A DNA stretch of 56,161 nt, taken from contig JNJK01000030.1 of assembly GCA_000701625.1 (NCBI GenBank), forward strand, positions 1 to 56,161, in the 5' to 3' direction. Source of the DNA: Lachnospiraceae bacterium MC2017 (GTDB lineage: Bacteria; Bacillota; Clostridia; Lachnospirales; Lachnospiraceae). Shown here piece after piece: positions 9,887 through 45,608 of the stretch (positions are counted from its first letter, which is position 1; each line of letters starts with the position of its first letter). A model generated the notes under the pieces. It searched no databases and had not been told where the DNA came from. It saw only the letters and a program-made list of their open reading frames with translations. The position numbers and the translations under genes were made by a program.

Positions 9887-11923
9887 TTAGTTCAGTCCAC
9901 TGTAAGACATCATGATCGTATTTGATCTCTCGATGAATGCTGCCATTTCATCCGGTGAAAGCTGCTTATTTGCAAGGAGAGCCAGATCATAAAGCTGCTC
10001 ACTTACAAGCTTGCTCTTTTCCTCATCAGGGTTCTCCATAACATTCTTTACCAGCGGATGGTTTGCATTGAGGACGAGCGTCTGTCCGTCATCATCCTTA
10101 AACATGTCATCCATAGCACCGCTTCCTGCAGAGTACATTCTCATCATATCCTGCATACGGCGTGTTTCCTCGGATCTGGTAAGCATAGAAGCTACTTTCT
10201 TATTCTTGAGCTTCTGAATCTTTACCTCAAGCTTTTCCTTCTTAAGAGCCTTGCGGAGAAGTCCCTGTACTGTCTCAGCTGACTTTGCAAACTCTTCCTG
10301 CTCTTTCTTTGACTCCTTGGAAGCCATAGCATCGGTTACATTTGAGTCGATACGAAGGAACTTTACACCCGGGTTCTTTGCTTCGAGCTGCTGCATGAAC
10401 GGAGTATCGATATTGTTTTTGAGGATGACTGCGTCCATCTTTGCATGCTTAAACATATTTATGTACTGACCCTGCTGCTTTTCGTCAGTTACATAGTATA
10501 CGATGGTCTCTTTCTTTTCTTCCTCTGACTCGTCCTTCTTTTCTGCTGACTCATCTACAACCTCTGCCTCAACCTTTTCTCCGGTCTCGGTATCAACTGC
10601 TTCTGTCTCCTCAACAGCCTCTGTCGGAAGCTCCAGACACTCAGGAAGTGTAAGATACTTTCCATTGATATCGTGGAACAGGATGAAGTCATTGATCTTC
10701 TCGGCAAACTTGGAATTTCTGAGATATCCGTACTTTACGAAAGGAGAAATGTCATCCCAGTACTTCTCATAATTTTCCTTATCGGTCTTGCACATACCGG
10801 AAAGTTTCTCAGCGATCTTCTTTGTAATATAATCAGAGATCTTTGTTACGAAGCCGTCGTTCTGAAGTGCGCTTCTGGATACGTTAAGCGGCAGATCCGG
10901 ACAATCGATAACACCCTTTAAGAGCATCAGGAACTCAGGGATCACTTCCTTGATATTATCTGCTACAAATACCTGATTATTGTAAAGCTTGATCTTTCCT
11001 TCGATGGACTCGTACTCGATGTTGATCTTAGGGAAGTAAAGGATTCCCTTGAGGTTAAACGGATAGTCCATGTTCAGGTGGATCCAGAAAAGCGGCTCTC
11101 TGTAATCCTGGAATACCTTACGGTAAAATTCCTTATATTCATCATCTGTGCAATCCTTCGGAGTCTTTGTCCAAAGGGGATTAGTATCGTTTATCGGAGC
11201 AGGTGCTGCCGGTGGTACTTCATTTCCATCCTTATCCTTTGTAGGCTTAGGCGGCTCTGCGTTTACATCCTTAAGATAGATTTCTGTCGGCATAAATGAA
11301 CAGTACTTATCAAGTACTTCACGAACACCGTACTCATTACAATACTTAAGGCTGTCATCATTAAGGTAAAGTGTGATCTCTGTACCTACGCGTGTACGAT
11401 CACCGTCTGTCATATCATAGTTTGTGCCTGCGCCTTCGCACTCCCAATGTACCGGAACTGCGTCCTTCTGATATGAGAGTGAGTCAATGGTTACCTTATC
11501 AGCTACCATGAATGCTGAGTAGAAACCGAGTCCGAAGTGACCGATGATCTGGTCATTATCAGCCTTATCTTTATATTTATTAAGGAACTCTGTTGCACCG
11601 GAGAAAGCGATCTGGTTGATGTATTTATCAACTTCATCCATGGTCATTCCGATACCGTTATCGATGAACTTCAGAGTTTTTGCTTTGTTATCTACCTGTA
11701 CATCAACTCTGCCCTTGAGACCTGCTCCCTCTGTTCCGTCTGTTTCTTCTGCCGGAGCCTGGTACTCGCCGATCATCTCAAGCTTTTTCAGCTTTGTGAT
11801 GGCATCGCATCCATTACTTACAAGCTCACGGATAAAGATATCCTGATCAGAGTACATCCATTTTTTTATGATTGGGAATATATTTTCACTGCTTATTGAA
11901 AGATTTCCGTGTCTTTCTGCCAT
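9887..11923 (-). CDS. htpG: Molecular chaperone HtpG (Hsp90 family)
   Basis: Cytosolic ATP-dependent chaperone for protein folding under stress. The 678-residue protein has the N-terminal GHKL ATPase (SDQDIFIRELVSNGCDA, KFIDNGIGMT, GHFGLGFYSAF), the middle domain (PLFWIHLNMDYPFNLKGILYFP, LPLNVSRSALQ) and the dimerisation domain ending near AAFIERSNT. It is longer than E. coli HtpG because of a Pro/Lys-rich insertion near residue 225 and an acidic Glu/Lys run near residues 445-485. The start was set at ATG 11921-11923; a GTG at 11944 in the same frame precedes the GGAAAGGA ribosome site and is less likely. A CIRCE operator and a good promoter lie directly upstream, so HrcA control is expected. 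Confidence 0.96.
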   Translation of the reverse strand: MAERHGNLSISSENIFPIIKKWMYSDQDIFIRELVSNGCDAITKLKKLEMIGEYQAPAEETDGTEGAGLKGRVDVQVDNKAKTLKFIDNGIGMTMDEVDKYINQIAFSGATEFLNKYKDKADNDQIIGHFGLGFYSAFMVADKVTIDSLSYQKDAVPVHWECEGAGTNYDMTDGDRTRVGTEITLYLNDDSLKYCNEYGVREVLDKYCSFMPTEIYLKDVNAEPPKPTKDKDGNEVPPAAPAPINDTNPLWTKTPKDCTDDEYKEFYRKVFQDYREPLFWIHLNMDYPFNLKGILYFPKINIEYESIEGKIKLYNNQVFVADNIKEVIPEFLMLLKGVIDCPDLPLNVSRSALQNDGFVTKISDYITKKIAEKLSGMCKTDKENYEKYWDDISPFVKYGYLRNSKFAEKINDFILFHDINGKYLTLPECLELPTEAVEETEAVDTETGEKVEAEVVDESAEKKDESEEEKKETIVYYVTDEKQQGQYINMFKHAKMDAVILKNNIDTPFMQQLEAKNPGVKFLRIDSNVTDAMASKESKKEQEEFAKSAETVQGLLRKALKKEKLEVKIQKLKNKKVASMLTRSEETRRMQDMMRMYSAGSGAMDDMFKDDDGQTLVLNANHPLVKNVMENPDEEKSKLVSEQLYDLALLANKQLSPDEMAAFIERSNTIMMSYSGLN

Positions 11924-20622: not shown

Positions 20623-21014
20623 GCTTTGTCTCCTTTCGTTTTGTCTATCGCAGCTTTCTCTGCCGCCTTGGAAAGAAGTTCATCTACTTTGATTCCAAAT
20701 TCCCGTCCCTCTTTTAGGATTTCACATAAACGCCCAACCAGTTCTTCTTTTTTTGCTTCCATGAGATTATCATTCTCCTTGACAAAATTTCCTCTGCCCT
20801 TTACTGCATATAAAAATCCCTGTCGCTCTAATTCTGCGTACGCCCTCTGTATCGTATTGGGATTAGTTCCCAACTCGACGGCAAGGCTTCGAACAGACGG
20901 CATCTGCTCATCCGGCTGCAAAATCCCTTTTAGTATCAGCGTTTTGTAATATTCGCTGATCTGCTCGTATATTGGTCTGGGATTTTGGTAATCGATCGGT
21001 GTCATCCGCTCCAC
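20619..21014 (-). CDS. GntR-family (YtrA subfamily) transcriptional regulator
   Basis: Likely repressor of its own operon. The 131 residues start with the winged-helix GntR domain (PRPIYEQISEYYKTLILKG, MPSVRSLAVELGTNPNTIQR, YAELERQGFLY, KGRGNFV) and end with a short helical region of about 45 residues, the hallmark of the YtrA subfamily that lacks a large ligand-binding domain. The start may be GTG at 21014 or the ATG at 21003-21005; AAAGGATGG is the nearest ribosome site. It is first in a three-gene operon with ATPase and permease. A perfect operator-like palindrome lies upstream at 21148-21168. Confidence 0.9.
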   Translation of the reverse strand: MERMTPIDYQNPRPIYEQISEYYKTLILKGILQPDEQMPSVRSLAVELGTNPNTIQRAYAELERQGFLYAVKGRGNFVKENDNLMEAKKEELVGRLCEILKEGREFGIKVDELLSKAAEKAAIDKTKGDKA

Positions 21015-21147
21015 CCATCCTTTCTAAATCTTTGCACGGCGCGTTTCCGTTCATTTTATGCACCGGCTTTTCCCTGTGACAGCAGGAGAGGCACATCTCC
21101 TGCTTGCTTTTCCTTCTGTACGGCCTGCACTTTTATTGTGTATCAAC

Positions 21148-21168
21148 TGTACTAGAAGTATTAGTACA
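21148..21168. promoter_or_regulatory. Operator-like palindrome for the GntR/YtrA regulator
   Basis: TGTACTA (21148-21154), 7-bp spacer, TAGTACA (21162-21168): a perfect inverted repeat about 135 bp upstream of the regulator. Wide-spaced palindromes of this kind are typical YtrA-family sites. Assignment to this regulator is inference from position. Confidence 0.6.
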
Positions 21169-21245
21169 CTCGTAATATACTTCCACTTTGTTTTGATGTC
21201 AATACATTTTTTTGCATACAATGCGTTTAATGAACAGGATGGCAC

Positions 21246-21439
21246 GTTCAGGTCATAGGTTTATATTCTTCCGCGCTCGGACAGTTCTAGGCTCACGCAC
21301 CGCCCTCAAAAACACGGAAATTTGCGTGAAACTCGCCGCTTCAGCGGCTTAAACAGTTCACTCAAATTTCCTAATCGGACAGCGTGTTTGCTAAGAATCG
21401 CCGGCTGATTGCTGCACAAGATAACTATATGCCCTGCAC
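21246..21439 (-). repeat. Structured dispersed repeat, copy A
   Basis: A 194-bp self-complementary element on the minus strand. It shares with copies B, C and D the ends CAATCAGCCGGC and TGTCCGAGCG and a central palindrome (here CCGC-TGAA-GCGG). Its outer arms are degenerate (about 14 of 19 bases can pair). It is in inverted orientation to copy B, 122 bp away, with very high similarity between facing right halves. The spacer 21440-21561 is AT-rich with nothing recognised. See findings. Confidence 0.85.
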
Positions 21440-21561
21440 TTTCGTTACGACTTAAACAGAAAGCTATGATTCCGGTTATGTCACGAACATATTTTTTTAT
21501 TATTCCCCTACTTTATGAATTTAACTATAATATATAAATTCTTCCGTCTTTCACAAAGTAA

Positions 21562-21755
21562 GTCCAGATCATATATTTATATTCTGGAGCAATCAGCCGG
21601 CAGTTCTTGGCAAACACATCGACCGAATAGGAAATTTATGCGAACTGTTTGAGCCGCTTTTGCGGCGAGTTTCGCAGAAATTTCCGTGTTTATGAGGGCG
21701 GTGCGTGAGCCTAGAACTGTCCGAGCGCGGAAGAATATAAATATATGACCTGGAC
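21562..21755 (+). repeat. Structured dispersed repeat, copy B
   Basis: A 194-bp element forming one long hairpin. Outer arms 21562-21585 and 21732-21755 pair at 23 of 24 positions (AT-rich, ending TTTATATTCT). Inside come CAATCAGCCGGC on the left and TGTCCGAGCG on the right, then CAGTTCT/AGAACTG and GGC/GCC around a T-T mismatch, GAAATTT/AAATTTC, GCGAA/TTCGC, and the apical CCGC-TTTT-GCGG. It ends 28 bp before the tRNA-Thr promoter. Confidence 0.9.
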
Positions 21756-21783
21756 GCCCCCATGCGAAGAGCAAAAATAACTG

Positions 21784-21812
21784 TTGACACAGTCAAACTA
21801 CTTTGCTATGAT
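21784..21812 (+). promoter_or_regulatory. Promoter of tRNA-Thr
   Basis: TTGACA (21784-21789), 17-bp spacer, TATGAT (21807-21812): near-consensus sigma-A promoter about 40 bp before the tRNA. Confidence 0.9.
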
Positions 21813-21853
21813 AATCAAGCGCGTTAAGTGACGCGTCAAGGATATTCACACAT

Positions 21854-21926
21854 GCTGGAATGGCTCAGGTGGTAGAGCGCATCATTGGTAGTGATGAGGT
21901 CCCGAGTTCGACTCTCGGTTTCAGCA
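21854..21926 (+). tRNA. tRNA-Thr (anticodon GGT)
   Basis: A 73-nt cloverleaf: acceptor GCTGGAA/TTTCAGC with discriminator A; D-stem GCTC/GAGC; anticodon stem CATCA/TGATG around TTGGTAG, giving anticodon GGT; T-arm CCGAG-TTCGACT-CTCGG. CCA is not encoded. It has its own promoter and is followed by a strong terminator, so it is a single-gene unit. Confidence 0.96.
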
Positions 21927-21931
21927 TATTT

Positions 21932-21967
21932 AAAACTCCGGAATCAAAAGATTCCGGAGTTTTTTTG
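21932..21967 (+). terminator. Terminator after tRNA-Thr
   Basis: ACTCCGGAATC and GATTCCGGAGT pair around AAAA, followed by TTTTTTT on the plus strand. Arms 21935-21945 and 21950-21960. Confidence 0.93.
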
Positions 21968-22004
21968 TACCAAAAACCTGCCTCACGACGAGACAGGTTA
22001 ATGA

Positions 22005-22598
22005 TCACAATGCTTTTCTGACTTTTGCACGGATTCGCTGAAGTGCATTATCCGTAGATTTTTCATCTCGTCCGAGGACGCGGGCAATCTCACCGTTTCT
22101 TAATCCGGTCATATGGAGATCCAGAACTTCTTTTTCGAGAGGGCTCAGTGTTTCAAGGATTTCTTCTATCCTCTCTGCATTTTCCCTGTCGATAAGAACT
22201 GTTTCCGGATTCTGGTCATCACTGGATAAAAACTCTGCAAAGGGTTCTTCCTGATTATTCTCAGAACCACTTGAAAGCGACAGCGAACCATTTAACGGCA
22301 TATGCTTCTGTCTACCCGAGGAGCGGACTGCCGAATATAGCTGTCTCGTCACCACCAACTGACAAAATGTGGACAGCGAGGCATCACGCCCGGGATCATA
22401 ATCCCGGATGGCCTTATAAAGACCTATCATGCCTTCCTGTATGAGATCCTCTTTTTCACCTCCGAGTATGAACATGGATTTCACACGCATGCGGACCATG
22501 TTCTTATACTTTTCCATGAGGTAATCCATGACATCCTTATCTCCCTCTCTCAGAGCAGTGATAAGTTCCGCGTCACTCATTTCATCATACTGTCCCAT
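22005..22598 (-). CDS. sigH: RNA polymerase sigma factor SigH
   Basis: Sigma-70 family factor used in B. subtilis at entry to stationary phase, competence and sporulation. The 197 residues include region 2 (DYLMEKYKNMVRMRVKSMF, EDLIQEGMIGLYKAIRDYDP, FCQLVVTRQLYSAVR, RQKHMPLN) and region 4 (LSPLEKEVLDLHMTGLRNGEIARVLG). QKHxPLN and the gene's position at the end of cysS-mrnC-rlmB match SigH in other Firmicutes. It lies 34 bp downstream of rlmB. The yacP-type gene usually between rlmB and sigH in Bacillus is absent here. Confidence 0.92.
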   Translation of the reverse strand: MGQYDEMSDAELITALREGDKDVMDYLMEKYKNMVRMRVKSMFILGGEKEDLIQEGMIGLYKAIRDYDPGRDASLSTFCQLVVTRQLYSAVRSSGRQKHMPLNGSLSLSSGSENNQEEPFAEFLSSDDQNPETVLIDRENAERIEEILETLSPLEKEVLDLHMTGLRNGEIARVLGRDEKSTDNALQRIRAKVRKAL

Positions 22599-26592: not shown

Positions 26593-26680
26593 TTATTTGT
26601 CCTGTTCTGTTATGTATTCATTTATGACATAGTCACGTGCAATCCGCGCGTTCAACTTTCCTATTTCAAACACTTAGCCT

Positions 26681-26740: not shown

Positions 26741-26935
26741 GTGCCGTACAGATAAATAGTTCCAGAGACAATCAGCCGGCATCTCTTAGAGAATGCGTTG
26801 TCCGATTAGAGAATTTCTGCGAACTGTTTGAGACGCTTTTAGCGTCGAGTTTCGCAGAAATTATCGAGTTTATGAGGACAACGCATGAACTTAGAGATGT
26901 CCGAGCGTCTCAGGAACTACTTATCTGTACAGCAC
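26741..26935 (+). repeat. Structured dispersed repeat, copy C
   Basis: A 195-bp long hairpin. Outer arms from 26746 and to 26930 pair at 22 of 24 positions and have no sequence relation to those of copies B or D. Inside: CAATCAGCCGGC and TGTCCGAGCG, CATCTCT/AGAGATG, a perfect 11-bp stem ATGCGTTGTCC/GGACAACGCAT, TTCTGCGAA/TTCGCAGAA and GACGC-TTTTA-GCGTC. It lies between ispF and the GH3 hydrolase, in the place of a terminator, but without a T-run. Confidence 0.9.
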
Positions 26936-39613: not shown

Positions 39614-39899
39614 GTTTTTTTGTCCTTTTTTGTTTTTTATTGTTTTATCATGGTTGTGGCATCCCGCTCGTGCCAGCACGTATAAGTATTTCCTGAAACG
39701 CTCGGACTGCACAACATTATATTTATCGGCTGAAAGGCCGATAATATTAATACCAGGTCAATCTATGATATTATTATGATTATAGACCAAAAAATGTACG
39801 TCGTAGCAAAATCGAGACATTTTAATGTTCTTTATCAAGAACGCTGGAGCGAGCAAAGCGAGCAATCAGCCTGTACAAAACTATGAACTGCCAAAGTCA
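39614..39899. other. Gene-free region with remnants of the structured repeat and one hairpin
   Basis: On the minus strand 39676-39712 reads like the right end of the 195-bp repeat (GTCCGAGCGTTTCAGG, then a copy-C-like tail). On the plus strand GAGCAATCAGCC at 39860-39871 looks like a left end. Neither has its other half. TTATCGGC/GCCGATAA near 39723-39744 makes a further hairpin. I see no gene. Confidence 0.5.
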
Positions 39900-40100
39900 G
39901 TACGTGTGAACCGTATATTACCTTACGGAACAATAAGCCGGCAGCGCTTAGTGAACACGCTGTCCGAGTAGGAGATTTCTGTGTACTGTTTGAGATGCGG
40001 AGCATCGAGTTACACGGAAATCTCCGCGTTTACGCGGACAGTGCGTGAGCTTAGCGACTGTCCGAGCCGTGACGGAAGGTAATATACGGCTCGCACGTAC
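39900..40100 (+). repeat. Structured dispersed repeat, copy D
   Basis: A roughly 201-bp long hairpin. Outer arms share GTACGTG/CACGTAC and CCGTATATTACC/GGTAATATACGG, unrelated to copies B and C. Inside: CAATAAGCCGGC and TGTCCGAGCC, CGCT/AGCG, CACGC/GCGTG with TGTCC/GGACA, GGAGATTTC/GAAATCTCC and GATGC-GGA-GCATC. The right arm ends only 13 bp before the start codon of the metalloprotease gene, so it forms that gene's upstream region. Confidence 0.9.
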
Positions 40101-45451: not shown

Positions 45452-45608
45452 TGATGCCAGGGTCCAAAGGTATAAATCCGATTGTGCTTGCACAAGGAGG
45501 ATTTGTACCTTTGGACCCGCTAAACACGAGCAAGTAGCGTAATTACGCGGATTGCGAGTGTTTTAGAAGCGCGTGAGCTGCATAGCAGCGAAGCGATTCG
45601 TGGCATCA
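45452..45608 (+). ncRNA. Candidate cloverleaf-like structured RNA or DNA element upstream of the thioesterase
   Basis: The ends TGATGCCA (45452-45459) and TGGCATCA (45601-45608) pair perfectly and enclose three hairpins. The first (45460-45518) has a 13-bp stem GGGTCCAAAGGTA/TACCTTTGGACCC, a T-G pair, AAATCC/GGATTT, and an inner TTGTGC/GCACAA. The second (about 45521-45567) pairs CTAAACAC with GTGTTTTAG around GCGTAATTACGC. The third is GCTGC-ATA-GCAGC near 45578-45590. It ends 25 bp before the thioesterase start, next to its ribosome site. Whether it is transcribed is unknown. Confidence 0.5.

Follow-up and report, generated by a model that had tools for sequence, protein, structure and literature searches.

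The window, that is, the whole stretch of 56,161 nucleotides that was analysed (contig JNJK01000030.1 of Lachnospiraceae bacterium MC2017), carries four copies of a repeat of about 195 nt, named A to D. Across the family, each repeat is approximately 200 bases long and forms one long rod. Copy A (21246–21439, minus strand) and copy B (21562–21755, plus strand) are organized head-to-head around a spacer (21440–21561) and are 85% identical. Copy B is a full hairpin, the core of which (21585–21734) is flanked by outer arms. Copies C (26741–26935, plus strand) and D (39900–40100, plus strand) are also full hairpins, and D terminates shortly before a YgjP-like gene (Pfam). A covariance model, R1, was built from 17 cores of the MC2017 genome and does not include the outer arms. 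It matches copy A at 21267–21416 on the minus strand with 152.9 bits, and copies B, C, and D with 169.9, 157.9, and 156.5 bits, respectively; its five matches in the window at E-values up to 1 comprise copies A to D and an antisense match to B. Copies C and D each retain, on the minus strand, a remnant of a lost head-to-head partner. The right-arm end of the deleted partner of C lies at 26632–26645, as identified by alignment with the corresponding locus of the congener G014, in which the partner is present; in G009 it is decayed. The decayed partner of D is found at 39666–39712 (blastn, 85% identity over 47 bp).

The predicted end-to-end folds of copies B, C, and D have energies of −92.1, −99.3, and −110.9 kcal/mol, with z-scores of −10.9, −12.1, and −9.5 relative to shuffled sequence. 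The initial annotation had proposed four copies with a single common fold. All four copies are present and B, C, and D fold from end to end, whereas copy A lacks the full fold: its outer stem is mismatched, its energy is −67.8 kcal/mol (z = −1.96), and 9 of 200 shuffled sequences fold equally well. The right arm of A resembles that of B, while in the G009 orthologue of A the right arm fits its own left arm. Because of this difference, we read copy A as a chimera that was probably overwritten by B.

The core is held together by covarying pairs. In the alignment of the 17 cores from the MC2017 genome, standard pairs make up 98.1% of the pair cells, compared to 87.7% in shuffled alignments, and two-sided changes occur in 26 of the 43 core pairs, compared to 10.1 in shuffles; none of 500 shuffles reaches either value. 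When the partners are slid by one to three columns, the proportion of paired cells falls to 30–42%. Another of the five covariation measures, the number of further pair types, was matched by 20 of the 500 shuffles. The two-sided changes bear out the initial proposal that compensatory substitutions preserve the same stem. In copies L114 and L115 of genome G013, the apical part is longer and different, and the core is otherwise near-identical.

The outer arms provide a test of self-complementarity that is independent of R1, because they are not part of the model. In the MC2017 genome, the match of a left arm to the right arm of its own copy has a value of 0.826, compared to 0.620 for the right arms of other copies, and the own partner is the best match in 22 of 25 copies. 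The corresponding values are 0.925 and 0.665 in G013 (own partner best in 14 of 14), 0.873 and 0.747 in G031 (7 of 10), and 0.939 and 0.588 in G075 and G400 together (9 of 9). None of 5000 permutations reaches the observed self-matching in any of these four subfamilies. The matched outer arms of the nine copies in G075 and G400 extend over 65–97 nt with 0–10 mismatches or gaps. The cores are more similar among copies than the left arms are, with mean identities of 0.965 versus 0.803 in G031 and 0.859 versus 0.704 in G013. The outer arms thus constitute a regime of their own, being divergent among copies and matched inside each copy. Together with the covariation of the core, the arm matching supports selection on a self-complementary structure, as RNA or as single-stranded DNA, as had been suggested from the window alone.

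Within a subfamily, the arms have a common consensus and common ends. In the G000 family, and in this family only, GTAAGTG is found at the left end of the majority of 34 aligned rows and the right end is near-complementary to it, so that the element is bounded by terminal inverted repeats; the outermost approximately 10 bp are in common, and the arms are copy-specific further inward. Several copies have additional repeats at their borders. Six copies of G013 and G027 (L112, L113, L121, L124, L125, and L128) are flanked by inverted GGGGACG.../...CGTCCCC repeats that look, by eye, similar to CGTC-type REPs, and comparable repeats at L123 are directly oriented. Fragments of such repeats without the hairpin are present at one locus in G001 and G030. 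By eye, several of the G279 copies (L219–L223) are located between terminator-like hairpins with their T-runs facing, and the inverted repeat is extended outward. The flanks of L098 in G031, which lies between the start of its contig and about base 400, are inverted for approximately 65 bp past the element as far as the contig start; this extension may be real or an effect of assembly.

The search of the MC2017 genome and of other Lachnospiraceae with a covariance model, as suggested in the initial annotation, returned many matches. The MC2017 genome contains 25 full copies (148–175 bits) and three weak matches, namely one short fragment and two antisense matches. The refuting outcome named in the initial annotation, an absence of further copies from the genome, thus did not arise. 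Among congeners, R1 has 27 matches in G009, 23 in G014, 25 in G013, 17 in G027, and 13 in G031, with fragments and antisense matches included, and three in G440; none was found in G003, G028, and G032. In a set of 61 genomes (MC2017, 36 congeners, and 24 of other families), 13 have R1 matches, and all 13 belong to the same genus as MC2017. A scan of 397 Lachnospiraceae genomes, in which seven candidates were scored per genome and the counts are therefore lower bounds, found matches in at least 13 genomes and at least 10 of 334 genera.

A sequence pattern scan of named genomes yielded 57 stretches, 55 of which are titled Lachnospiraceae and two Acetatifactor, and many come from rumen metagenomes. 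With a shorter pattern that represents the rod top, matches were obtained in 19 of the 397 Lachnospiraceae genomes, belonging to 17 of 334 genera, and in 7 of 391 class-wide genomes, five of them outside the family and one with 29 matches. Single matches may be due to chance, because the reversed control pattern is itself matched once per genome in 3 of the 397 and 4 of the 391 genomes. After refolding, CTTAG pairs with a second CTTAG in 19 of 22 rod-top matches, and the wider matches in Lachnospiraceae and other clostridial families are probably relatives by motif and fold. This wide distribution rests on R1 and the sequence pattern, as 19 diverse cores are too divergent to be aligned into a second model. 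Carriage by phages or plasmids was rejected, since the phage and plasmid collections yielded no match to the element and matches to the top motif on viral contigs have the expected pairing in only 1 of 48 cases. The exception is L324, at position 11081 of viral contig IMGVR_UViG_3300027021_000008, a stretch related to the clostridial top motif in which CTTAG pairs with CTTAG.

The head-to-head arrangement of A and B recurs in the family. Among the matches listed, all 21 of the 21 neighbour pairs less than 600 bp apart, counted by eye without antisense matches on the same element, are head-to-head, and they represent about 15 distinct loci. Three pairs are in G000, seven in G009 (three of them with a fragment), four each in G014 and G310, one in G075, and two in G400. 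Beyond the 600-bp limit there are same-strand neighbours at distances of 638 bp (L232) and 752 bp (C60 of G027), and one opposite pair 876 bp apart (C130 of G009). The single copies L043, L045, L048 (copy D), and L049 have a partner remnant on their 5′ side. The spacers of eleven head-to-head pairs, compared by eye, are alike only between orthologues.

The positions of the copies relative to genes bear on the possibility that the elements act in cis on the transcripts of neighbouring genes, as hairpins for RNA processing or stability, after having spread through chance insertion. The right end is no more than 75 bp from the next mechanically called open reading frame in 19 of the 25 MC2017 copies, and the location of D just upstream of the YgjP-like gene is consistent with such a role. 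However, the right-hand neighbour is on the plus strand in 15 cases and on the minus strand in 10, no two of the ten neighbours that were tested are of the same kind of family, and the two hairpins of a head-to-head pair both point away from their common spacer. A cis-acting function is therefore improbable. The copies are intergenic and have no neighbour gene in common.

Comparison with G009 and G014 enabled us to follow individual loci. Among 28 copies fetched from these two genomes, which is a part of their copies, orthologues of at least 14 of the 25 MC2017 copies were identified by their flanks. Eighteen orthologous loci were compared among MC2017, G009, and G014. In 14 of them, the core is 93–100% identical (142 of 152 positions or better), which is above both measured flanks; the 18-locus set omits two comparisons of L057, whose locus is rearranged. 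In the remaining four (L041, L046, L050, and L053), the core is strongly changed, and so are the arms. The L044/L144 pair has compensatory changes in the core. In L054/L136, three pairs within one block are altered on both arms with pairing kept, and the core is identical at 147 of 152 positions. The strength of this constraint on the fold at orthologous loci speaks for its continued use. Over the arms of the 18 loci, 17 cells are changed on both sides with pairing kept and 51 are one-sided changes between pair and mismatch, while a further 20 are otherwise one-sided and 14 otherwise two-sided. The ratio of 51 one-sided to 17 pairing-preserving changes is one that ordinary mutation plus selection could also give. 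Copies have apparently recombined with one another, judging from the mosaic cores at C and the converted arm at A.

Loci that differ in the presence of the element were compared in G440, G001, and G030. The A/B pair is absent from G440, which has a diverged spacer at this place. A stretch at approximately 21138–21168 of the window, around GTATCAACTGTACTAGAAGTATTAGTACA and ahead of a GntR-type gene, is identical in G440 within diverged surroundings. At a locus common to G013 and G027, the outer half of the arms differs between the two genomes and each element matches itself; G001 and G030 have no element there. No target-site duplication or clean empty site is readable at the G440, G001, and G030 loci, because these differ too much from the filled ones. 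These loci are relevant to the idea that the outer arms were copied from the target at insertion and that the inverted outer stem is host DNA. The different arms of copies with similar cores would fit such an origin, as would the longer inverted flanks around L098 and the REP-like repeats that enclose the six G013 and G027 copies. Nevertheless, members of a subfamily have the arm consensus and ends in common, and no arm sequence is visible at the empty loci of G001 and G030, although these loci have diverged. We rejected target-derived arms, as they gain no support from these diverged empty loci, and regard such an origin as very improbable.

It is doubtful, on balance, that the copies are a set of about 25 host genes for trans-acting structured RNAs, such as 6S-like rods or protein sponges, each of them retained on account of its product, which would have been duplicated and homogenised by gene conversion. 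The conservation of the core above its flanks, with compensatory changes, would be expected of such RNAs. Furthermore, of 112 copies, 101 have a better fold as the plus strand than as the reverse complement (in MC2017, 21 of 25), although this preference is weak in G279 (3 of 5) and in G075/G400 (6 of 9); the strand counts are not independent, because the copies have conserved loops in common and many are orthologues, and rows with too-short flanks at contig ends are omitted from the arm, strand-energy, mismatch, and promoter-peak counts. The arms, evaluated as duplexes, have little strand preference (61 lower, 50 higher, p = 0.04). The columns of consensus core pairs contain 82 G-U and 10 A-C cells, which again favours RNA, but 56 of the 82 G-U cells fall within three columns, and the count is biased, since conserved A-C mismatches are counted as loops. 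A strand-symmetric count of mismatches gives 42 G-T and 43 A-C in the core, and thus no polarity, and 50 and 35 in the arms. In an earlier, crude half-against-half count of the core, the G-T to A-C ratio was 52:48 for the G000 family, and for G013/G027 it was 2:14. The half-against-half count of the arms was 49 to 33 over all groups, with 26:26 in the G000 family, 9:1 in G031, 12:5 in G013/G027, and 2:1 in the others. Strand polarity was therefore dropped as proof of RNA on account of the core counts, and it is weak evidence. There is a slight lean towards the plus strand as the working form, be it RNA or single-stranded DNA.

Signals for transcription were sought on both sides of the core. 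The best forward promoter match places a −10 hexamer 10–16 bases before the core start in 12 of the 25 MC2017 copies, and the mean promoter score of these copies peaks at one position before the core, which would fit a family of transcribed RNAs. However, compared to the mirror side or shuffled flanks, and with approximate promoter weights, the p-values are 0.09, 0.22, and 0.67 over all copies and 0.22 and 0.071 for the MC2017 copies. The broader subfamilies have lower promoter scores. A promoter in the left arm is no more than a candidate, as the scores are not significantly above these controls. Within positions 21000–22100 of the window, neither A nor B has a terminator-like site at its right end. 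In addition, copy numbers of three or none found in congeners argue against a host RNA family.

None of the copies in the window matches an Rfam family, in agreement with the initial annotation, which did not recognise the element as known. Rfam release 15, searched with the whole window at gathering score, identified two tRNAs and a Clostridiales-1 RNA, none inside the element; the latter (RF01699) is at 45452–45608 on the plus strand with 122.5 bits. Copy C has no match at E-values up to 5, and the loci of eight relatives match only a lysine riboswitch and a tRNA at E-values up to 1, both outside the element. In twenty wider loci, a fluoride riboswitch and a Clostridiales-2 RNA score above the gathering threshold outside the core, and three matches, two of them on the element, are far below it. 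The Clostridiales-2 RNA (RF02937; L300, 831–911, minus strand) directly adjoins a relative of the element. The CUGUYUGAG...CGAGUU part may have a hammerhead-like look, and integron attC sites were considered as a further possible likeness. Searches of open-licence PMC papers did not bring up the element, which seems to represent a kind of hairpin repeat not described so far.

As far as the available parts of the published accounts go, several systems have features in common with the element. Similarly to MRSC-65-2 (PMC11109978), it consists of a single long covarying stem, occurs in dozens of copies per genome, has an inconsistent orientation to genes, and leaves open whether the working form is RNA or DNA. 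Multiple copies, a covarying structure, and inconsistent orientation to genes, by which the excerpted account delimits the MRSC class (PMC11109978), are all found here. By eye, the UYCCGG repeat given there for MRSC-65-2 is absent from the consensus of our alignment A2, and relative to that account, the copy-specific self-matching arms and the head-to-head pairing are features of the present element. In the available text on GTAG- and CGTC-type REP/BIME palindromes (PMC3733652), these repeats are likewise dispersed and often dimeric; for CGTC repeats, HH dimers are named, TT dimers are rare, and HT dimers negligible. The REPs described there are 20–40 bp long, whereas the elements here are approximately 190–320 nt long and have a structured interior. 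The bacterial MITEs covered by the same excerpt (NEMIS, ERIC, bcr1, and Nezha; PMC3733652) are similarly inverted-repeat elements of small size beside genes; unlike MITEs, the element has arms that are copy-specific beyond the outermost approximately 10 bp in the G000 family, and no target duplication was seen at the diverged loci that lack the element.

A further difference from REPs, as portrayed in that excerpt (PMC3733652), is that Y1 transposases do not track the element. The presence of the Y1 transposase family PF01797 does not follow that of the element in 16 genomes of the genus. There is no PF01797 match in the copy-bearing genomes G009, G031, and G015, which are 75, 82, and 93% complete, and there are matches in G028 and G032, both of which lack R1 matches. 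A Y1 transposase was thus rejected as the mover; the search for a mobilising enzyme, which covered this one family, found none.

We propose, with a probability of about one half, that the elements are non-autonomous mobile hairpin repeats, a giant rod-shaped counterpart of REPs and MITEs, under selection on the fold. This reading is preferred because the copy number, the lineage subfamilies, the dispersal, the lack of gene association, and the dimer arrangement fit it. The conservation of the core above its flanks speaks against it, in that it exceeds the needs of a purely selfish repeat. The folded strand, RNA or single-stranded DNA, might be recognised by a putative trans-acting protein through the conserved unpaired parts, for which CAATCA, CUGUYUGAG/CGAGUU, GUUUAUGA, and the T-T mismatch in CUUAG/CUUAG are candidates. 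The outer arms would clamp the rod and would need mainly pairing, which would allow their sequence to drift. Compensatory change, recombination between copies, and perhaps the copying of one arm onto the other by template switching could restore the pairing. Copies would spread within lineages and would afterwards be kept through selection on the fold.

Multi-base compensatory stem changes that are explainable by arm copying are also a feature of template-switch RNA hairpins in the available portion of PMC8794818, which deals with rRNA and microRNA; in the present family, such changes are distributed among many paralogous copies. By analogy with that portion (PMC8794818), template switching is a ready, although not proven, mechanism for the matched arms. 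It is conceivable, as a tentative extension of the mobile hairpin reading, that the element is self-templating, so that an outer arm would be rewritten on both sides by one templated event and every copy would acquire a private self-complementary clamp. The event might be a template switch or snap-back synthesis during mobilisation, with the conserved core bound by the putative protein.

Numerous paralogous hairpins in each genome, located at traceable orthologous loci and with arms that stay paired as their sequence changes, provide a natural setting in which to test the origin of compensatory change, and could distinguish between two-step mutation, template switching, and recombination. The conserved unpaired motifs, together with the head-to-head pairing, point to a putative, so far undescribed recognition system in gut and rumen bacteria.
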